Position numbers and translations under genes: made by a program. This document shows positions 7,973 to 31,679 of a DNA stretch of 35,120 nt, piece after piece. The notes below the pieces were generated by a model that worked only from the letters and a program-made list of their open reading frames with translations, was not told where the DNA came from and made no database searches. The stretch is from positions 1 to 35,120 of the forward strand of contig JAQGIF010000099.1 of the NCBI GenBank assembly GCA_028291345.1, in the 5' to 3' direction. The DNA is from Rhodospirillales bacterium (GTDB lineage Bacteria > Pseudomonadota > Alphaproteobacteria > BOG-932 > Roseiterribacteraceae). Position 1 is the first letter of the stretch. Each line of letters begins with the position of its first letter.

Positions 7973-9667
7973 CTATGGTTTGAGCTTTTCCTGGGCAAGC
8001 GGAATGGGGTCGTCTGTGCCGGGAGGCGACCCGCCCTTCGGGTAGAAGGTGGCGGGATGGTTGTTCTGCAGGAACTGCCAGGCCCCTGCCAGCGCCGTAT
8101 CCCCGGCGGCTTGCGCCGGCACCACGATCCGGAATGCGGCCCAGGCGGCGGTCGGCGCAGTGCCGAAGGCGCGCGCCGAATCCTCGGCAGCGCGCTCGTC
8201 CAGCAGCCTCGCCGCAGCCACCATATCGAGTGCCAGAAGCCCGAACGTGGCGTCAACCGCCTGACGGGCGTGCCCAATTGCGACCATCCCCTCATCCAGC
8301 GGGGGCAACGCGCCCGGTAGCGATGCGCCGGTCCGCTGGGCAACCGCTAGATCGAGCATGCCGAGCGCGGTCGTGAAAAAGGTGATCTCGTTCGCCATCG
8401 GATAGGGGTCGCGATTGAGCGCGGGTACGATATAGCCTCGCTTTCCACCGTTCGCCTTCCCTCCCTTGACGAAATATTTCATCATCTGCGGTGTGGAAAG
8501 CTCGGGCGATTCGCGTGGCGACAGTCCAAGCCGGAAGGCCGGGCTCTGGTCTGACGAATTCAACGCGATCAATGTCGCATCCCGTAGCGCGCCCCAGGCT
8601 CGCCACGCCGCGCCCTGACGCGTCGGCGACAAGGTCAGGCTTGCCGGAACAGCGCGCGGCGGCGATCCCGCAACGGAAGCGCCGCCGTCGTCGAACAGAT
8701 AGCTGCCCTTCAGCATGTCCAAGACCCGCGCCGCGTCCCAATAGGTCCACTTGTACGGGCGATTGGCCTGCGCCGGCAGCGACAGCGGTGCGATTGCGGC
8801 ATTCATGCCGTTCATATCCATTGCGAAGATCAGGTCGGCCCACTCGAGCGCACGGCGTCCGTCCGCGAGCAAAAGGGCTGTGCGCCCGATATCATAGGCA
8901 TCGGTATCGGTCAGCGCCGCATAGTCCGCGTCCACCGGCACGAGCGGTGTCAATCCGGCCTGAGAGAGGGCCTGCGCGGCCGCGACGCGGATACCGTGGT
9001 AATATGCATCGCCCTTGCCGACCATCGCGGCGGCGATCCCCGCCAACGCGGTTTCCGGTCCTCCTGATGCCCCAGGCAATGCCGCGACGGGTGTGATGCG
9101 GCTATTGAGGAAATCGACCATCATCTGCAAGACCGGCGCACTAGCCGGGGAATAGGTCAGCGTATTGGCCCTGACGACCATCAGCGCGCGGACGCCCTCT
9201 TCCTCGGTGATCTGGGCCGCGCCGGCCGGGGCAGCGGCGCTTTCGAACGATGCCATCGCGCGGCGCTGCAACATCGCCGCGACTTCAGGCGCGGCCGGAT
9301 CACCATCGAACAGGACGACGTCGCCCGCCGCGCCGCGCCGGTTGAAACCAATGATCGGCATGCCCTCGAGCGCCCCCTCGAGCAGCAGGGCATGGGCATC
9401 TTCCTGGTGGCGGCGCGCCTCCGGCGTTGCTTCGACCGTTTGGCCATAGCGGGCGACGGCGACCACCTGATCGACAGTCAGATCGTGGCCGGACAGCGTT
9501 ACGGTCTGGTCCGTCGCCGGCATGCCGGGCACGATCGGGCGATAAGGCGCTGCAGCGATAGCGTGTTCAAGTCCAAGCGCGGTCAGCAGGCCGGCCGTTG
9601 CCACGAGACGCCGCCGACAGCGCCGCAGACCTGTTCCGCTATCGAATTGGATCACCCGATTCTTCAT
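7973..9667 (-). CDS. Exported HAL/PAL-family aromatic amino acid lyase-like protein
   Basis: Protein of 564 residues (571 if GTG 9688 is used). An Arg-rich N-terminus (LRRCRRRLVATAGLLTALGL) ending AIAA looks like a signal peptide, possibly Tat. The rest follows the histidine/phenylalanine ammonia-lyase fold: VTLSGHDLTVDQVVAVAR (the family's opening motif), an Ala-Ser-Gly triad (207-209 in the longer numbering) that in this family cyclises to the MIO electrophile, and LIALNSSDQSPAF, matching the family's NS-x-DNP segment. The motif normally read YGxNTGFG is IGFNRRGA, so the catalytic Tyr is Ile113, and the usual DLAPL after ASG is GPETAL. It may deaminate an unusual substrate, or be an inactive binding relative. 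It is transcribed away from the small exported protein at 9900. The start is uncertain because neither candidate has good Shine-Dalgarno spacing. Confidence 0.75.
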   Translation of the reverse strand: MKNRVIQFDSGTGLRRCRRRLVATAGLLTALGLEHAIAAAPYRPIVPGMPATDQTVTLSGHDLTVDQVVAVARYGQTVEATPEARRHQEDAHALLLEGALEGMPIIGFNRRGAAGDVVLFDGDPAAPEVAAMLQRRAMASFESAAAPAGAAQITEEEGVRALMVVRANTLTYSPASAPVLQMMVDFLNSRITPVAALPGASGGPETALAGIAAAMVGKGDAYYHGIRVAAAQALSQAGLTPLVPVDADYAALTDTDAYDIGRTALLLADGRRALEWADLIFAMDMNGMNAAIAPLSLPAQANRPYKWTYWDAARVLDMLKGSYLFDDGGASVAGSPPRAVPASLTLSPTRQGAAWRAWGALRDATLIALNSSDQSPAFRLGLSPRESPELSTPQMMKYFVKGGKANGGKRGYIVPALNRDPYPMANEITFFTTALGMLDLAVAQRTGASLPGALPPLDEGMVAIGHARQAVDATFGLLALDMVAAARLLDERAAEDSARAFGTAPTAAWAAFRIVVPAQAAGDTALAGAWQFLQNNHPATFYPKGGSPPGTDDPIPLAQEKLKP

Positions 9668-9899
9668 CCTCACAAAAAATTTCAACACCTTACGCCAGAT
9701 TTCCTTGTATCGAACGTATTAAGGTCAAGCTATGGTTCATCGGCCGGTTTGAGCAATCCAATTGAGAGGCGAAACGCCGATTGCACGCGCCGGTCATGTC
9801 CCAGGCGGATTGCTGATTTCGCAATCCACCCCAGTTGTATATGAAGGCACAATATCAGCGGTTTTGGTGTTGGATCATCACGACGGCAGGAGAGGGTCC

Positions 9900-10306: not shown

Positions 10307-10338
10307 TTGACACATAGACGGGCAAAGCCGACCATTAT
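10307..10338 (+). promoter_or_regulatory. Candidate promoter for the thiC leader
   Basis: A perfect TTGACA (10307-10312) stands just upstream of the riboswitch. A weak -10 (ACCATT at 10331, 18-base spacing, or CATTAT at 10333) follows. Transcription would then begin just before the aptamer. The -35 match is good; the -10 is poor. Confidence 0.35.
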
Positions 10339-10341
10339 CTT

Positions 10342-12366
<2,025 letters not shown>

Positions 12367-13098: not shown

Positions 13099-15906
13099 AT
13101 GTCAAGCACTACGAAATCCAGAAATAAATCTTCCCTGCTCACCTGCACAGCATTACTTGCGCTAACGTCCGGAATATTTGGCAATATCGGCGACGCTTTT
13201 GCCGGCGACGATGTCACCGCCAATGGCGATCCTATCGAGACCATTGTGGTCACGGGCACTCGATTCAATACGGACGCTGCGCCGGCCAAAGCGTCGCTGG
13301 AGACGACCGAGCCGCAAACAATCATCAATCGCTCCTATATCGAGAACTTCGTTCCGCCACAGGCGGATTATGTGACGATCCTTGCCATCGTCCCCTCACT
13401 GACCGGCGGCGACTCAAACGGCCCGGGCCTGTCGGACGGCGGCGCCAAGAACACTCTGCGCGGCTTGCCGGACGGCAACTTCGCCATGCTGTATGACGGT
13501 GTCCCGTTCGGCGACACCAACGGCCCGACACATCACAATATCTCCTATTTTCCGGCCTCCACGATCGGTTCGATCGTTGTCGACCGCGGCCCCGGCAATG
13601 CCGGCAATCTGGCCTCGGCCACTTATGGCGGCACCATCAAGCTGTTTTCCCAGACCCTGAGCGCCGATCCCCAGGCAAACGGCACATTCAGCTTTGGAAG
13701 TTTCGACACCAAGCTTGGCGTGCTGAACGGACAGAGCGGCGATTTGGACGTCTTCGGCACCACCACGCGGGTTCTGGTCAATTTGCAAGGGCTTGAATCG
13801 GCCGGCGCGCTGACGCAGCAGGATGTCCGCTCATATAACGCAGTCATGAAGATTGAAACCAAGATCACGCCGGATTGGACGGTCACGCTGTTCGGCGATT
13901 ACAGCTATCTCAGAGAACATCTGGACGACAATAACGGCCTGACGCCCGCGCAGGTTCAGGTCTATGGCAAGGATTTCTCCTTGCAGAATACCAATCCTCT
14001 ATTGCCGACTTACTATGCCTATAATTACACGACAAAGGCGACGGACCTAGAATATTTCCATGTGAACGGGAACATCACGGATCGGCTCAAGATCGACAAT
14101 CTGGTTTATACCTATGCCTATTGGAACCATACATTCAGCCCGAACAGCCAAACCCAGACGCTCGCTCAGATCAACGCGAATACATCCGGCGATAACGGAA
14201 CCCTCACGCTCTTCTCGAACGGCACGAAGCTGCCCAATCAGCTACTCGCCTACGACAAGGAAAATAGATATCGTGTCTATGGCGATATTGTGCGCCTCTC
14301 GCAGGACTACGATTTCGGGTCGGTCACCGGCCAGGTCCGCACGGGCGCCTGGTTCGAGACCCAGGAAACCAATCGCTTCAAATATTTCTTCGACGCCAAT
14401 CTCTGCAATGCCAATCTCATCAATCCCTTGACCGCCGGCGGCGGCGCGGCGGCTTCGGCTTGCGGGGTGGTGAGCGGGCGAGCCTCGAACGGCTATCTCG
14501 GCTTCGGCAAGGACGATGAGCATACAACCTGGACTCAGTACCAGCCGTTCCTCGAGATCGATATCAAGCCGATCGAGGACCTGACCATCACGCCGGGCGT
14601 GAAATATGTTCACTGGATCCATGGTGTGAACGCCCCGATCGCACAGGGCTCGACCTGCGGCGTCTCCCTAGCTTGTCCGCCTTTCAACAAGCTTGGCCAG
14701 AATTATCAGACCAGCTTCATCACCCGCGATACGCTGCCCTTCCTCACCGTCAACTACAAGCTCGACAATTCTTGGAGCGTCTATGCCGAATATGCGAAAG
14801 GCATTTACGTACCGGATATCGCGTCATTCGAAACCAAAACGCCGACGGCCACGTTCCCGCAGGCGGAAAAGACGACCAATTACCAGCTGGGCACCGTGTT
14901 CTACGCGGACAATTTCACGTTCGATGCTGATATTTACTATATCGATATCAGCAACAACTATGTCAGTCAGCCTTGTAGCTATAACGTTTTGGAGACTTGC
15001 TACCTGAATAACGGCTCTGCGACTTATAAGGGCATTGAAGGCGAAGGCACCTACGCGTTCGACAAGGTATTGGATTTCGACCTCAGCGGCCTTTCCATCT
15101 TTGTGAACGGCGCCCTAATGTCATCGAAAGCGGGGGATGGCAGGTGGGAGCCGAACGCCCCAAAATGGACCGCGGCGGCCGGCCTACTCTATAAGAAGGC
15201 CGGCTGGAAATTCGGCCTGATCGCCAAGATAACCGGGCCGCAATATTCGGACACGACGAACTATTCCTTCTACAAACTGCCCTCCTACAGCAACGTGACT
15301 GCGACGGTCGGATATGATTTCGGCAATTACGAAGTGGGGGTCAATGTCGACAACGTGCTGAACTCCAGAGCGGTCCTGCAAATCGCCGAGGCCGGCGGTC
15401 TGCAGACAAACCCGGCAACCAGCCTCGATCAATATATCTTCCAGGCGCCGATCAGCGCGATGGCGACGTTAAAAGTTCATTTTGGCGGCAGCGACTTTTC
15501 ATCGGAAACGACGACGACCTATGCCCCGCCCCCGGTGATCGCTCCGGCTCCGGTGACGGCGCCGAAGAGCTATCTGGTGTTTTTCGACTTCAACAAGTCG
15601 GACCTGACGCCCCAGGCTATGAACACCGTGGACCAAGCGGCGCATAATGCCGGCCCCGCCCACGTGATGAAGTTGGAAGTAACAGGTCACACCGATACCG
15701 TCGGTTCCGAAGCCTACAATATGCGTCTCAGCCGCCGCCGTGCGGAATCGGTTGCGGCACGGCTGGAGAAGGATGGTGTCCCCTCCTCTGAGATCGAGAT
15801 CATCGCCAAGGGCAAGCGTGATCTTCTGGTCCCCACTGCAGACGGGGTGACAGAACCGCAGAACCGGCGCGTTCATATCGTCTATGAAGACGGTATGACC
15901 TCGTAA
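13099..15906 (+). CDS. TonB-dependent receptor with C-terminal OmpA-like domain
   Basis: Outer-membrane active transporter (935 residues) fused to a peptidoglycan-binding domain. Order: signal peptide ending DAFA (~1-35); TonB-box-like ETIVVTGTRF (~47-56); plug domain with TLRGLPDGNFAMLYDGVPFGD and the VDRGPGNAGNLASATYGGTIKL end; 22-strand-type barrel to about residue 795, closing with ATLKVHFGG; a Thr/Pro-rich linker (~796-820); then an OmpA_C domain (~821-935) with FFDFNKSDLTPQA, GHTDTVGS (Asp866) and NRRVHI (Arg923/924), the residues that grip diaminopimelate in this family. Standard TonB receptors stop at the barrel's last strand, so the fusion is unusual. The substrate is unknown. An acid phosphatase gene follows 116 bp downstream with a strong hairpin between, and a long structured leader precedes. 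Confidence 0.93.
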   Translation: MSSTTKSRNKSSLLTCTALLALTSGIFGNIGDAFAGDDVTANGDPIETIVVTGTRFNTDAAPAKASLETTEPQTIINRSYIENFVPPQADYVTILAIVPSLTGGDSNGPGLSDGGAKNTLRGLPDGNFAMLYDGVPFGDTNGPTHHNISYFPASTIGSIVVDRGPGNAGNLASATYGGTIKLFSQTLSADPQANGTFSFGSFDTKLGVLNGQSGDLDVFGTTTRVLVNLQGLESAGALTQQDVRSYNAVMKIETKITPDWTVTLFGDYSYLREHLDDNNGLTPAQVQVYGKDFSLQNTNPLLPTYYAYNYTTKATDLEYFHVNGNITDRLKIDNLVYTYAYWNHTFSPNSQTQTLAQINANTSGDNGTLTLFSNGTKLPNQLLAYDKENRYRVYGDIVRLSQDYDFGSVTGQVRTGAWFETQETNRFKYFFDANLCNANLINPLTAGGGAAASACGVVSGRASNGYLGFGKDDEHTTWTQYQPFLEIDIKPIEDLTITPGVKYVHWIHGVNAPIAQGSTCGVSLACPPFNKLGQNYQTSFITRDTLPFLTVNYKLDNSWSVYAEYAKGIYVPDIASFETKTPTATFPQAEKTTNYQLGTVFYADNFTFDADIYYIDISNNYVSQPCSYNVLETCYLNNGSATYKGIEGEGTYAFDKVLDFDLSGLSIFVNGALMSSKAGDGRWEPNAPKWTAAAGLLYKKAGWKFGLIAKITGPQYSDTTNYSFYKLPSYSNVTATVGYDFGNYEVGVNVDNVLNSRAVLQIAEAGGLQTNPATSLDQYIFQAPISAMATLKVHFGGSDFSSETTTTYAPPPVIAPAPVTAPKSYLVFFDFNKSDLTPQAMNTVDQAAHNAGPAHVMKLEVTGHTDTVGSEAYNMRLSRRRAESVAARLEKDGVPSSEIEIIAKGKRDLLVPTADGVTEPQNRRVHIVYEDGMTS

Positions 15907-25478: not shown

Positions 25479-25772
25479 ATGACCGATAGATTCATCCCGG
25501 CAGAGAACGTCCGCATATCGGATCGGTCGCCCTTCCGTCTCGCTCGCAGCGGCCGGGCCCATCTCTATTCCACCGGCGTTGCGACCCTCGACATACTGAG
25601 GCCCGCGTTGCTCAACCCCAATTTCGGCTTGATTCTTCTGGCGCTCATCACCTTTGCCGGTGGTGTCCTCTACGGCGTCTTCAGGCCCACCGCGGACATG
25701 GACACGTCATCTGTTTTTGACGCGAATATCCTTGCCTCCGACGCAGCGCAACCGCTGGAGAGCCCGAAATGA
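25479..25772 (+). CDS. Small single-span membrane protein at the head of the RND operon
   Basis: Protein of 97 residues with one hydrophobic helix (LILLALITFAGGVLYGVF, ~51-68). The preceding ~45 residues are basic and cytoplasmic in predicted topology, and the ~30-residue tail is acidic and faces the periplasm. The ATG has a GAGGA site. Its stop overlaps the permease start (ATGA), so synthesis is coupled to the pump. I recognise no family. By analogy with small proteins bound to RND pumps, such as AcrZ with AcrB, it may modulate the permease, but no sequence similarity supports this beyond size, topology and position. Confidence 0.75.
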   Translation: MTDRFIPAENVRISDRSPFRLARSGRAHLYSTGVATLDILRPALLNPNFGLILLALITFAGGVLYGVFRPTADMDTSSVFDANILASDAAQPLESPK

Positions 25773-28700
25773 TCGGTATCGTAAAGATCGCGCTTCGGCG
25801 TCCTTATACTTTCGTCGTCCTGGCGCTGTTAATCCTGATCTTTGGGGTCGGGTCAGCGCTGCGCACGCCGACGGACATATTTCCCAATATCAATATCCCG
25901 GTGATCAGCGTCGTCTGGAGTTATAACGGCTTGCCGCCGGACGACATGTCCGGCCGCATTGTCGCCTTCTACGAACGCGCCCTCACCAACAGCGTGGACA
26001 ATATCGAGCATACCGAGTCGCAGTCGATCGCCGACTATGGCGTGGTGAAAATCTTCTTCCAGCCGAACGTAAACATTAACGCGGCGCTGGCAGAAGTCAC
26101 CGCGGTATCGCAGACGGTGCTTAAGCAGATGCCGCCGGGCATTACGCCACCCCTCGTCCTGAGCTTCAACGCGTCGAGCGTGCCGATTTTGCAACTCGCT
26201 CTGTCCAGCGAGCAGCTTTCGGAGACCAAACTCTACGATTACGGGCTGCAGTTCATCCGGCCGCAGCTCACGTCGGTCGCCGGGGCCTCAATTCCAGCCC
26301 CTTATGGCGGTAAGGTCCGGCAGGTCCAGGCCGACCTCAATCAGCAGGCGCTCCACACCTATGGGATTTCCGCCAACGACGTCATCAATGCTTTGTCGCT
26401 TCAGAATCTGATCACGCCGGTCGGCACCGAAAAGATCGGCAAGCTGGAATACACGGTCAATTTGAACGATTCGCCGCGGCGGATCGAAGCGTTCAACGAT
26501 CTGCCGGTCAAGACCGTCAACGGGACGGTTATCTATATGCGCGATGTTGCTTTCGTACATGACGGCAGCCCGCCCCAGACCAACGTCGTCCATGTCAACG
26601 GCAAGAGCGCCGTGCTGCTGTCGGTCGTCAAGGCAGGCGCCGCTTCGACACTGGATATCATTTCCGGCATCAAGGCGTTGCTGCCGAGTGTCGCCCAGAC
26701 GATGCCGTCCAGCCTCCATCTAACAGCGGTCGGCGACCAGTCGGTCTATGTGACGAGCGCCGTCTCCGGAGTCGTCCGCGAGGGCCTGATCGCCGCCGCG
26801 CTGACCGCCACCATGATCCTGCTGTTTCTCGGCAGCTGGCGGTCAACGCTGATTATCGCAATCTCGATCCCACTCGCGGTCCTGGCCTCGTTGACGACCC
26901 TTTCGATACTGGGCGAGACGATCAACGTCATGACGCTTGGCGGTTTGGCGCTCGCTGTCGGCATTCTGGTCGATGACGCGACCGTGACGATCGAAAACGT
27001 CAACCGCCATCTCGACCTGGGCCAAGACATCGAATCCGCGATCCTGAATGGAGCTCACGAGATCATGGTCCCGGCGACCGTCTCGCTAATGTGCATCTGC
27101 ATCGCCTTCGTTCCGATGTTCGGCCTCGGCGGCGTGGCCGGCTATCTGTTTCGCCCGCTTGCGGAAGCCTTCGTCTTCGCGCTGATCGCCTCCTACGCAT
27201 TGACCTATACGCTGGTGCCGACGATGGCGAATTTTCTCCTGCGCCATCAGGTTCACGGCGCTGGACAGGAGGGCGAGGTCAGCCGCAACCCCCTGGTGCG
27301 GTTCCAGAGGGGCTTCGAGCATCGGTTCGAGGCGTTCCGTGCGCATTACCGCGGCCTGTTACAGCTGTGCCTGAACAACCGCCGTAAGCTGATCGGCGGG
27401 TTCCTCGGCTTTTCATTGCTCTCGTTCGGGCTTGCGCCATTCCTGGGCCAAGATTTTTTCCCGAACGTTGATGGCGGGCAGATCAAAATCCATGTGCGGG
27501 CACGAACCGGTACGAGGATCGAGGAAACCACGCGTCTGAGCGACCGGATCGGCACCGAGATCCAGAAGATCATCCCGCCCGGCGAACTCGGCGGAGTCGT
27601 CGATAATATCGGCCTCAGCGCCAGCCCCATCAACACCGCCTATAACAATTCCGGCACGATCGGCGTCCAGGATGCGGATATATTGATCAGCCTGGGCGCG
27701 AAACACGCGCCGACGGCGGGCTATGTCAAGACGCTGCGTGAGACGCTGCCTCGCCTGTTTCCGGGCGTCAGCTTCTCCTTCCTGCCGGCCGACATGGTCA
27801 CTCAGGTGCTGAACTTCGGCGTGCCCGCCCCCATCGATTTGCAATTGGTGGGCGACGACGTCCAGGCGGATCGGACATACGCCGACGCTCTGCTGGCGCG
27901 GATTAGGCGCATTCCCGGCATCGCCGATGCAAGAGTTCAGCAGGCCTATGAGGAACCCACACTGGACGTGAATGTCGATCGATCGCTGGCGGGTCTCGTC
28001 GGTCTCAACGAGCGGGACGCGGCAACTGCCATGCTCGACACGCTGGCCGGAAGCACACAGACCAGTCCCACCTTCTGGCTGAATCCGACCACCGGCGTCT
28101 CCTATCCGGTTTCAGTGCAGACGCCCCAGTACAACATCGACACCATGAGCGGTCTGCGGAACATCCCCCTGACCACGGGCGCTGGCACTGGCCCGGGCCC
28201 TGGCAGCGACACGCAATTGCTCGGTGGCCTGGCCACGATCGGGCGGTCGATCAGCGACGCCAGCGTTTCACACTATAACGTCCGCCGGGTCGTCGATATC
28301 TATGCGACGCCGCAGGGGCGCGACCTAGGGGCCGTCGCCGCCGACATCCGCAAGGTTATGCAGGACACCGCCAAGGACGTCCCGCATGGCGCCAACCTGG
28401 TTCTGCGCGGCCAGGTAGCGACGATGACGAGTGCCTATCAGCAACTGTTTGTCGGTCTCGCCCTCTCGATCGTGCTGATCTACATGCTGATCGTCGTCAA
28501 CTTCCAATCCTGGCTCGACCCCTTCATCATCGTCATGGCGCTCCCAACCGCGCTCGCCGGCATCGTTTGGATGCTGTTCTCCACCGGGACCACTCTGTCC
28601 GTCCCGGCGCTCACCGGTGCGATCATGTGCATGGGCGTCGCGACCGCGAACAGCATCCTCGTGATCGCCTTCGCACGGGAACGAATGGAGAAGGGCGTCG

Positions 28701-28993
28701 ATGCGGTGACCGCGGCGATGGAGGCGGGCAGCACCCGTTTCCGACCGGTTTTGATGACCGCGCTGGCCATGATTATCGGTATGGCGCCGATGGCCATCGA
28801 ACCCGGACAGAACACCCCGCTCGGGCGGGCGGTCATCGGCGGCCTGATCTTCGCCACCTGCGCGACCCTGATCTTTGTGCCGACTATGTTCAGCCTGGTT
28901 CATGCGCGCGACCGTAAAAAGGCTGAGGCCCCGTCGCCCGGCCACCCTTCTGACGCAAGCCTCTCCCTGAATGGAGCTACCCATGGAACCTGA
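25769..28993 (+). CDS. RND-family efflux transporter permease
   Basis: Inner-membrane proton-driven pump (1074 residues, AcrB-like). It starts with the helix RRPYTFVVLALLILIFGVG, has two large periplasmic loops and 12 helices. The TM4 motif GILVDDATVTIENVNRH gives Asp402-Asp403 of the proton relay. At the place of AcrB Lys940 the sequence reads GVATANSIL, so the lysine is replaced (Ala960 by alignment to AcrB LSAKNAIL). This occurs in some RND subfamilies and implies a different relay. Substrate unknown. It is coupled to the small membrane protein before it and overlaps the adaptor gene by 11 bp. The genes, with the outer-membrane factor, form a full tripartite system. Confidence 0.95.
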   Translation: MIGIVKIALRRPYTFVVLALLILIFGVGSALRTPTDIFPNINIPVISVVWSYNGLPPDDMSGRIVAFYERALTNSVDNIEHTESQSIADYGVVKIFFQPNVNINAALAEVTAVSQTVLKQMPPGITPPLVLSFNASSVPILQLALSSEQLSETKLYDYGLQFIRPQLTSVAGASIPAPYGGKVRQVQADLNQQALHTYGISANDVINALSLQNLITPVGTEKIGKLEYTVNLNDSPRRIEAFNDLPVKTVNGTVIYMRDVAFVHDGSPPQTNVVHVNGKSAVLLSVVKAGAASTLDIISGIKALLPSVAQTMPSSLHLTAVGDQSVYVTSAVSGVVREGLIAAALTATMILLFLGSWRSTLIIAISIPLAVLASLTTLSILGETINVMTLGGLALAVGILVDDATVTIENVNRHLDLGQDIESAILNGAHEIMVPATVSLMCICIAFVPMFGLGGVAGYLFRPLAEAFVFALIASYALTYTLVPTMANFLLRHQVHGAGQEGEVSRNPLVRFQRGFEHRFEAFRAHYRGLLQLCLNNRRKLIGGFLGFSLLSFGLAPFLGQDFFPNVDGGQIKIHVRARTGTRIEETTRLSDRIGTEIQKIIPPGELGGVVDNIGLSASPINTAYNNSGTIGVQDADILISLGAKHAPTAGYVKTLRETLPRLFPGVSFSFLPADMVTQVLNFGVPAPIDLQLVGDDVQADRTYADALLARIRRIPGIADARVQQAYEEPTLDVNVDRSLAGLVGLNERDAATAMLDTLAGSTQTSPTFWLNPTTGVSYPVSVQTPQYNIDTMSGLRNIPLTTGAGTGPGPGSDTQLLGGLATIGRSISDASVSHYNVRRVVDIYATPQGRDLGAVAADIRKVMQDTAKDVPHGANLVLRGQVATMTSAYQQLFVGLALSIVLIYMLIVVNFQSWLDPFIIVMALPTALAGIVWMLFSTGTTLSVPALTGAIMCMGVATANSILVIAFARERMEKGVDAVTAAMEAGSTRFRPVLMTALAMIIGMAPMAIEPGQNTPLGRAVIGGLIFATCATLIFVPTMFSLVHARDRKKAEAPSPGHPSDASLSLNGATHGT

Positions 28994-30206
28994 ACACAAC
29001 ACAGCGCCGATCGAACCGATCAGGACGCCTCACCGCCGGTTCCTCTGGTTGGCTGGCGGAGTCGCCTTTGTCATTTTGGGGGCGGTCGCGGTGACCGGCA
29101 TGATCGCGCGAGCCAACAGCGAGCGGCAACTTGTGACATGGACGGACGCTCAGGCGATACCAACCGTGGCACTCGCGACGCTTACATACGGCGACGCGGG
29201 CGGAGGGCTGACTCTCCCCGGCAGGATCCAGCCCTTTAACAAGGCGTTAATTTACGCCCGGGTCAGCGGCTACCTCAAGAGTTGGCAATCCGATATCGGC
29301 GCGCAGGTCAAGGCTGGTCAGGAACTGGCGGTGATCGATACGCCCGATCTCGACCAGCAGCTGGACCAGGCGAAGGCGGATCTGGCCAGCGCCGACGCCA
29401 ATGAGCAACTGGCGGCCCTGACCGCCAAGCGTTGGCGCGCACTGCTGACGACGCAATCGGTGGCCCAGCAGGCGGCCGACGAGAAGACCGGCGACGCTGC
29501 GGCGAAGAAGGCCATCAAGGACGCTGCCGAAGCGAATGTGCGGCGGCTGGAGGCGATGGAAACTTTCAAAACGATCGTTGCGCCCTTCGATGGTATCGTC
29601 ACTGCCCGCACCACGGATATCGGCGCCCTGATAAACGCCGGCGGCGGCACGGGGCAGGAGCTGTTCGAAGTGTCGGACCTGCACAAGATCCGAATTTATG
29701 TGCAGGTCCCGCAGGCTTTTACGGCCGAACTGCAGCCTGGGATGCAGGCGAGTTTTGAGATGCCGCAACATCCCGGCCGCCAATTCACCGCCACCCTGGT
29801 GACGACGTCGAACGCGATGAATATGAATTCGGCCAGCATGTTGGTCGAATTGCAAACCGATAATGCAGACGGCGCGCTTAAAGCCGGCGCCTATTGCCAG
29901 GTGCATTTCCAGCTTCCCAATGATGCGAAATTGGTGCGCCTGCCGGCCACCGCGTTGGCGCCGACCGATCGCGGCCTACAAGTTGCCGTACTCGGTGACG
30001 ACAACAGGGTGACCCTCAAAGCGGTTCAGCTCGGCCGGGACTTCGGCGACAATGTCGAGGTGGCTGCCGGCCTGTCGCCGTCGGATCGCGTGATCGACAA
30101 TCCCCCCGAGACACTGGAAAGCGGGGACGCAGTTCAGCTGGCGGCGGCGAAGCCGTCATCAAGCACGAAACAGGTCGCCGGGCAGCCGGCGGCCAAAGGA
30201 AATTGA
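28983..30206 (+). CDS. RND efflux periplasmic adaptor (membrane fusion protein)
   Basis: Adaptor of 407 residues linking permease and outer-membrane channel. An N-terminal membrane anchor (LWLAGGVAFVILGAVAVTGMI, ~20-40) precedes the barrel-sandwich half (IYARVSGYLKSWQSDIGAQVKAGQELAVIDTPDL). An alpha-helical hairpin (~120-195, rich in Ala, Gln, Lys) follows, then the second lipoyl half (FKTIVAPFDGIVTARTTDIGALI) and a beta-barrel/membrane-proximal C-terminus. I chose the second ATG (28983), which has GGAG seven bases upstream; an ATG four codons earlier does not. The gene ends 3 bp before the outer-membrane factor. Confidence 0.93.
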   Translation: MEPEHNTAPIEPIRTPHRRFLWLAGGVAFVILGAVAVTGMIARANSERQLVTWTDAQAIPTVALATLTYGDAGGGLTLPGRIQPFNKALIYARVSGYLKSWQSDIGAQVKAGQELAVIDTPDLDQQLDQAKADLASADANEQLAALTAKRWRALLTTQSVAQQAADEKTGDAAAKKAIKDAAEANVRRLEAMETFKTIVAPFDGIVTARTTDIGALINAGGGTGQELFEVSDLHKIRIYVQVPQAFTAELQPGMQASFEMPQHPGRQFTATLVTTSNAMNMNSASMLVELQTDNADGALKAGAYCQVHFQLPNDAKLVRLPATALAPTDRGLQVAVLGDDNRVTLKAVQLGRDFGDNVEVAAGLSPSDRVIDNPPETLESGDAVQLAAAKPSSSTKQVAGQPAAKGN

Positions 30207-30209
30207 ACC

Positions 30210-31679
30210 ATGCGGTTCCGTAATCTTCCGGTCATCGGTTTTGGTTTGCTCCTGACCGCCTGCAATTTGGCGCCGGAGTATCATCCGCCGCTGATTGCCA
30301 CGTCTGCGTCGTATAAGGAATCGGGGCCGTGGCATCCGGCCCAGCCGTCGGACACCCTGCCGCGTGGCCCGTGGTGGGAGCGGTTCGGCGATACTACGCT
30401 CAACGAACTCGAACCGCGGATCGACGCAGCCAATCCGACCCTGGCGGCAACGGTCGCGATCTACGACCAGGCCCGCGCTTTCGCCGCGCAAGCCGAAGCG
30501 GGCCTGTATCCCCAGGTCAATCTCGGGGCCAGCCTGTCAGCCAACCGACAGTCAGATACCCGCCCGCTGCGCGCGTCAAAAGCATCGGGCAGTCAGTTCG
30601 GCGCAAATGAGCTGAACGCCCAAGCGAGTTACGAAATCGACTTTTGGGGCAAAATGAGGAACACGGCGCTTGCCGGCGAGGCCTCGGCACAGGCGAGCGC
30701 CGCTGATCTGGCGACCATCCATCTCAGTTTGCAGGCGGAGCTGGCGAGCGATTATTACTCGTTACGCGGCCTCGATGCCGACGCTCAATTACTGGCGGAC
30801 ACGGTAACCGCCTATCAGAAAGCACGCGACCTGACGGAGAGGCTCTTCCAGGGAAAGATCGTGTCGAGTATGGACGTGTCGCGCGCCGATACTCAGTTGG
30901 AAACAGCGCGGGCGCAGGTCTCGGACATCGCCGCGCGGCGGGCGCTTCTGGAGCACGCCATCGCGATCCTGGTTGGCGAACAGCCGTCCAGCTTCTCGCT
31001 GCCCGCCAAGGTGCTGCCGTTCAAGCTCCCCGACATTCCCACGGGCATGCCGTCGACGCTGCTCCAGCGACGGTCGGACATTGCGATGGCCGAGCGGAAC
31101 ATGCAGGCGGCAAATGCCGAAATTGGCGTGGCCCGCGCTGCTTTCTACCCGTCGGTATCGCTCAATTTCCTCGGTGGCACCCAATCGACGAGCCTTAGCC
31201 TCCTCAGCCTGGCAAACAGCTTCTGGTCGGTCGGCCCGAGCGTTTCGCTGCCGCTGTTCAACGGTGGCGCGCTTGACGCCCAGGAATCCGCCACCTATGC
31301 CAAGTTCCGCCAGACGAACGCCGATTATCGCGCGACAGTGCTCAGCGCCTTCGCCGAGGTCGAGGACAATTTGGCCTTGCTCCAATGGCTGGGCAAGGAG
31401 TCCGGCAACGAGGACGCGGCCGTCACGGCAGCCCAGCATACACTCGATGTCGCGCTCAACCTTTATCAGCAGGGCGCCGACAGCTATCTTGAGGTGGTGA
31501 CGGCGCAAACGCCGCTTCTTCAGGCACAGCAAACGGCGCTCGACCTCCGGACCCGCAGGCTGCTGGCCGACGTCGCGCTGATCCGAGCGCTCGGCGGCGG
31601 CTGGGATACCGGGGAAATGCCGTCCGAAGCCGAAGCAACCAAGCTAGCGGCCAACGACTACCCTGATCCCGGCCGGTGA
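30210..31679 (+). CDS. NodT-family outer-membrane efflux lipoprotein
   Basis: Outer-membrane channel of the tripartite pump (489 residues, TolC/OprM-like). The lipobox LLTAC places the lipidated cysteine at residue 18. Two repeated helical-barrel halves are visible: WWERFGDTTLNELEPRIDAANPTLAATVAIYDQARAFAAQAEAGLYPQVNLG, and later LLQRRSDIAMAERNMQAANAEIGVARAAFYPSVSLNF with SYLEVVTAQTPLLQAQQTALDL. These are standard for the NodT/OprM group. An AAGGAA site lies in the last codons of the adaptor gene. Immediately past the stop the sequence changes to a DUF3604 gene fragment. Confidence 0.95.
   Translation: MRFRNLPVIGFGLLLTACNLAPEYHPPLIATSASYKESGPWHPAQPSDTLPRGPWWERFGDTTLNELEPRIDAANPTLAATVAIYDQARAFAAQAEAGLYPQVNLGASLSANRQSDTRPLRASKASGSQFGANELNAQASYEIDFWGKMRNTALAGEASAQASAADLATIHLSLQAELASDYYSLRGLDADAQLLADTVTAYQKARDLTERLFQGKIVSSMDVSRADTQLETARAQVSDIAARRALLEHAIAILVGEQPSSFSLPAKVLPFKLPDIPTGMPSTLLQRRSDIAMAERNMQAANAEIGVARAAFYPSVSLNFLGGTQSTSLSLLSLANSFWSVGPSVSLPLFNGGALDAQESATYAKFRQTNADYRATVLSAFAEVEDNLALLQWLGKESGNEDAAVTAAQHTLDVALNLYQQGADSYLEVVTAQTPLLQAQQTALDLRTRRLLADVALIRALGGGWDTGEMPSEAEATKLAANDYPDPGR

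Follow-up and report, generated by a model that had tools for sequence, protein, structure and literature searches.

TonB has to pull on its receptors through the wall between the two membranes, and it is an unsettled matter how these receptors are held or positioned for this. In Neisseria the OmpA_C protein RmpM (the class 4 protein) is associated with the TonB receptors TbpA, LbpA and FrpB, and its loss results in fewer larger receptor complexes and in less iron-dependent growth (PMC8497027). The protein described here, encoded within a 35,120-nucleotide stretch of DNA that was analysed as a whole (the window), resembles RmpM in that an OmpA_C peptidoglycan-binding domain is tied to TonB receptors. 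However, RmpM acts in trans as a separate protein, whereas in the window the OmpA_C domain lies inside the reading frame of the receptor itself, and in this organism it does so on many receptors. None of the components is new, and OmpA_C is found combined with many other domains; in the open-access literature we found no description of a TonB receptor-OmpA fusion or of a genome-wide tail that evolves in concert.

A TonB receptor and an OmpA_C domain in one reading frame

The receptor-OmpA_C fusion is real. A frame of 935 codons without an internal stop begins at position 13099 and closes with the stop codon at 15904-15906. Its parts, and two features upstream of it, are as follows.

13099..15906, + strand: TonB-dependent receptor and OmpA_C fusion gene, 935 aa (open reading frame)
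13234..13257, + strand: TonB-box-like motif IETIVVTG, about residues 46-53 (sequence motif match only)
13300..13605, + strand: Plug domain, residues 68-169 (Pfam PF07715)
13933..15483, + strand: TonB-receptor barrel, residues 279-795 (Pfam PF00593, model, Foldseek and the end of a tail-less orthologue)
15484..15567, + strand: proline-rich linker, residues 796-823, 28 aa (sequence; low pLDDT in the model)
15580..15867, + strand: OmpA_C domain, residues 828-923 (Pfam PF00691, full length)
10336..10473, + strand: TPP riboswitch, 59.9 bits, directly upstream of thiC
10462..12366, + strand: thiC

The Plug, barrel and OmpA matches each exceed the curated Pfam cut-offs (PF07715, residues 68-169, 32.4 bits against a cut-off of 23.9, 1.4e-7; PF00593, TonB_dep_Rec_b-barrel, residues 279-753, 102 bits against 27, 9.3e-29; PF00691, residues 828-923, profile positions 1-98 of 98, 69.5 bits against 27.2, 3.2e-19), and they bear out an earlier sequence-only reading of this gene as a true TonB receptor joined to a complete OmpA_C domain. 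The protein has the Plug, the large TonB-type barrel and the TonB box of a TonB receptor, and its tail has the full-length domain match and the Asp/Arg pair of the diaminopimelate (DAP) type that mark an OmpA_C domain; it is not a porin of the OmpA type, since no OmpA_membrane or OMP_b-brl Pfam match was found at its N-terminus. As the Plug and TonB box are kept, transport should remain TonB-driven, and TonB_C proteins are encoded in the same genome. An attempt to name the substrate gave no assignment, the FecA model scoring far under its own cut-off on this receptor.

A structural model of the protein, built from 27 sequences and of moderate to low confidence (mean pLDDT 52.6), shows strands predicted with confidence in the barrel's second half, a final barrel strand at residues 786-795 that closes at Phe795, an unstructured stretch, and helices at residues 838-854 and 871-891 in the OmpA part. 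The top Foldseek matches of this moderate-confidence model are the TonB receptors PqqU/YncD, BtuB and FecA. Phe795 is conserved in at least 90% of an alignment of 27 sequences, most of them fusions, and it is at this terminal Phe that a more distant orthologue (L106, on JAJPHO010000097; 62% identity) stops without a tail: its end, ...GTLKARF, aligns with ...ATLKVHF-GGSDF... of the window protein, which continues into the linker. The tail has thus been added to a barrel that is complete, given that the tail-less orthologue terminates at the same residue. The genome of that orthologue has OmpA matches solely in short frames of at most 374 aa. Two nearer orthologues, on PLTD01000094 (72% identity) and CAJCJC010000005 (68-70%), come from independent metagenome-assembled genomes (MAGs) and have the identical junction. 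These relatives, together with the absence of a stop codon between the two parts, exclude for this gene both of the circumstances that had been named as able to undo the fusion, namely a stop codon missed in sequencing and two separate genes misjoined in this copy.

OmpA_C domains that have this Asp/Arg pair bind the DAP of the cell wall. In the OmpA of A. baumannii the published DAP ligands are Asp271 and Arg286, to which Asp866 and Arg881 of the window tail correspond both by motif and by an identical spacing of 15 residues; each is at least 90% conserved in the same alignment of 27 sequences, mostly fusions. The earlier proposal of Asp866 paired with Arg923/924 as ligands is therefore right as to the aspartate and needs correction as to its partner, which is Arg881: Arg923/924 are conserved, yet they are not the equivalent of A. 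baumannii Arg286. Judged by this correspondence of residues, the window tail would grip the diaminopimelate of peptidoglycan non-covalently.

We considered and rejected control of the receptor by the TPP riboswitch, which stands before thiC. We note that thiC, 91% identical, also lies beside the receptor on PLTD01000094 (L104); that the receptor is linked to thiamine is only a guess. The window also encodes an aromatic amino acid lyase family protein of 571 aa (7973-9688, - strand) and a complete tripartite efflux operon (25769-31679, + strand) consisting of an AcrB-type pump, an HlyD-type adaptor and an OEP outer-membrane factor, and none of the three efflux proteins has an OmpA match.

Breadth of the tail across receptors and genomes

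What the sequence-only reading overlooked is that many outer-membrane proteins of the genome share this tail, as a module that recombines among them. The organism is a peat-bog bacterium, whose genome (5.63 Mb, 97% complete) contains 39 OmpA-domain places, as against 1-19 in each of 59 other Pseudomonadota genomes, and 64 Plug places. Tail-bearing receptor frames number 28, all of them with a Plug and 26 with an OmpA match at the Pfam level, the remaining two being cut within the tail by contig ends. About half of the TonB receptors of the genome carry the tail and about half do not, which shows that transport as such does not depend on it. The same module is found at the C-terminal end of an autotransporter (L034), of a PagL deacylase (L037) and of a small OmpA-type barrel (L035), and N-terminal to the barrel in a BBP2 porin (L036). 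This last arrangement, with the module ahead of the barrel and the order thus reversed relative to the receptors, occurs in three genomes (L036, L082 and L211).

Outside this genome, the PagL, BBP2 and small-barrel fusions have counterparts in a second genome, G001, in which the orthologue of the autotransporter is 68% identical. Two genomes of the same genus have 32 and, in the one that is 65% complete, 14 places that match, each of two genomes of the sister genus contains one receptor fusion, and the MAG JABDBE010000044 contains a single fusion to a receptor and a single one to a BBP2 porin; the genus data are draft MAGs throughout. Among the matches listed for 54 genomes from other families of the class there was no receptor-length frame, and the two longest frames among those listed for the 59 other Pseudomonadota genomes were OmpA-plus-WD40 proteins. 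The plasmid matches listed extend over no more than 73% of the junction query, and those with an annotation are OmpA-family or similar proteins.

Of the 57 long frames in the genus that bear the tail (56 TonB receptors plus one autotransporter family counted twice at most), 51 have a TonB-box-like motif. Measured by an automatic rule from the terminal aromatic residue of the barrel to the module, the linker of these 57 frames is 23-30 aa long, mostly 27, with 52% Pro+Ala, and its length is nearly constant across unrelated barrels. Tail-bearing receptors also occur in tandem, five at L065 (G001, contig C234) and three at L017 (the window's own genome, contig C298), and these arrays are likely hot spots of tail exchange. 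In another tail-bearing receptor of this genome (L029:4170-4510, contig C252) a TAG stands at the conserved Tyr of the module (LPHS*LVFFDF), which reflects either an error of sequencing or a nonsense mutation.

Gain, loss and homogenisation of the tail

Beyond the lineage, the module is most closely related to OmpA-type proteins about 340-410 aa long, which are the likely source of the tail; the donors would have been small OmpA-type proteins of the lineage itself. In a tree of the modules those of PagL and of the small barrel fall outside the receptor modules. The tail has been gained or lost repeatedly: when 57 receptors of the window's genome are placed on a tree (made by a quick method, and having some long branches), its presence or absence requires 14 changes, at least 11 of which are forced by well-supported branches, and close paralogues with and without the tail coexist in the genome.

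Barrels track species orthology and tails group by genome. G000 and G001 share 11 reciprocal-best pairs (receptors and the autotransporter) with barrels 59-76% identical, and in 10 of them, in one case narrowly, the tail is nearer to some tail of its own genome than to that of its orthologue. PagL and the small OmpA-type barrel behave differently: the orthologue's tail is closer than any own-genome tail, from which it follows that neither of the two is undergoing homogenisation. In each of the three orthologues of the window gene the tail is typical of its own genome, and a tree that forces these tails into one group is worse by 102 log-likelihood units (AU p=3.25e-5). The longest exact DNA tracts shared between tails measure 110 nt in G000 (between L011 and L015, whose barrels belong to different subfamilies) and 131 nt in G001, as compared with at most 50 nt between genomes of the genus. 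In 7 of 12 pairs these tracts exceed what shuffled codon columns yield at p<=0.005, a result that serves only as a guide since the pairs were picked for long tracts; some tracts within genomes are no longer than shuffled columns yield. Together these observations indicate that ectopic recombination or gene conversion acts within the tail. We rejected the idea that all tails stem from entire receptors copied recently, since the barrels have diverged and fall into several subfamilies, and also constraint alone as a full account of the likeness between tails, because of the long exact DNA tracts and the clustering by genome.

Possible roles of the tail and comparison with known systems

We think it probable that the tail acts as a wall tether in cis, that is, as an OmpA_C anchor on a TonB importer that is selected for and is homogenised within each genome by recombination. 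A periplasmic OmpA_C domain in the same chain as the barrel would grip the diaminopimelate of the wall and so anchor the receptor. The tail may have come from small OmpA-type proteins, joined just behind the last strand of many outer-membrane barrels. It is retained under purifying selection, and ectopic recombination or gene conversion keeps its copies within a genome alike.

An unlikely account is that recombination simply spread the tail over outer-membrane genes, where it is tolerated and of little benefit to the receptors. The recombination evident inside the tail, the close paralogues that stand side by side with and without it, and the paralogue with a TAG at the conserved Tyr all agree with this possibility. 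The tails, however, have a median dS of about 0.9 and a dN/dS of about 0.10, and so low a ratio at such high synonymous divergence shows that their protein sequence is under purifying selection; the ligand residues, moreover, are invariant, the linker is almost uniform in length, and in more than one species the tail is carried by several families of outer-membrane proteins that are unrelated to each other. It is also improbable that the tail primarily clusters or recruits receptors through parts of Tol-Pal, through TonB or through a tail dimer, with wall binding secondary. The receptor modules of one genome have a mean amino-acid identity of 87%, which seems more than wall binding alone would require, the OmpA domain of the genome's own Pal is only about 33% identical to that of the window protein, and RmpM has been linked to larger TonB-receptor complexes; nevertheless, recombination that homogenises the tails accounts for their likeness without a partner, and the DAP-ligand pair is invariant. 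Finally, assembly of MAG contigs might have joined a TonB receptor to an OmpA gene, the sources being draft MAGs in which several contigs terminate inside the module, as repeats cause, but we dismiss this for the window gene on the strength of the junction in PLTD01000094 and CAJCJC010000005, identical and on the same barrel, and in general because the fusion is found also in G003 (a genome of the sister genus in 3 contigs, 99% complete) and because more than 20 different barrels have in-frame junctions.

If the tail is indeed a tether in cis, its benefit could lie in cohesion of the outer membrane, in the positioning of receptors or in resistance to the pull of TonB; it may also stabilise the receptor or bring it nearer to TonB, as the sequence-only reading proposed. 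A tether might, on the other hand, impede the movement of receptors, which is a point against this model. The question of assembly that the sequence-only reading raised over an internal last strand is weak: OmpA itself is assembled with an internal last strand and a periplasmic OmpA_C tail behind it, and since OmpA is built in this way BAM can handle a barrel followed by a tail. We also suggest, tentatively, that OmpA_C might be a general outer-membrane anchoring tag of this lineage, one that replaces RmpM-like linkers and sets the position of receptors with respect to the wall and TonB. With about half of its receptors carrying a predicted wall anchor in cis beside close relatives without a tail, this lineage, the bacterium together with its nearest relatives, would offer natural paired comparisons. 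It also provides an unusually clear bacterial example of concerted evolution, in each genome, of a small domain that has spread across membrane proteins of unrelated kinds.

Several known systems share parts of this arrangement. PsaB of a photosystem I (PDB 7f4v), presumably that of Gloeobacter, is likewise an unrelated membrane protein with an OmpA-like domain at its C-terminal end; unlike the receptors described here, it is a single protein of an inner-membrane photosystem. TpgA provides an OmpA_C-type wall anchor for another outer-membrane machine, the trimeric autotransporter adhesins, but it is a separate protein that serves a different machine, and its NCBIfam model (NF047726) matches the window tail weakly and far under the cut-off. 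Proteins of the OmpA/OprF type have the same succession of barrel, linker and C-terminal periplasmic OmpA_C domain, and the nearest kind of tail is that of L035 in the same genome; their barrel, however, is small and passive, whereas that of the window protein is of the TonB-receptor type, large and fitted with a plug. Receptors of the FecA, BtuB and PqqU/YncD type share with it the TonB box, the plug and the barrel, and are its best fold matches, but known TonB receptors stop at the last barrel strand, where the window protein adds a further 140 residues.
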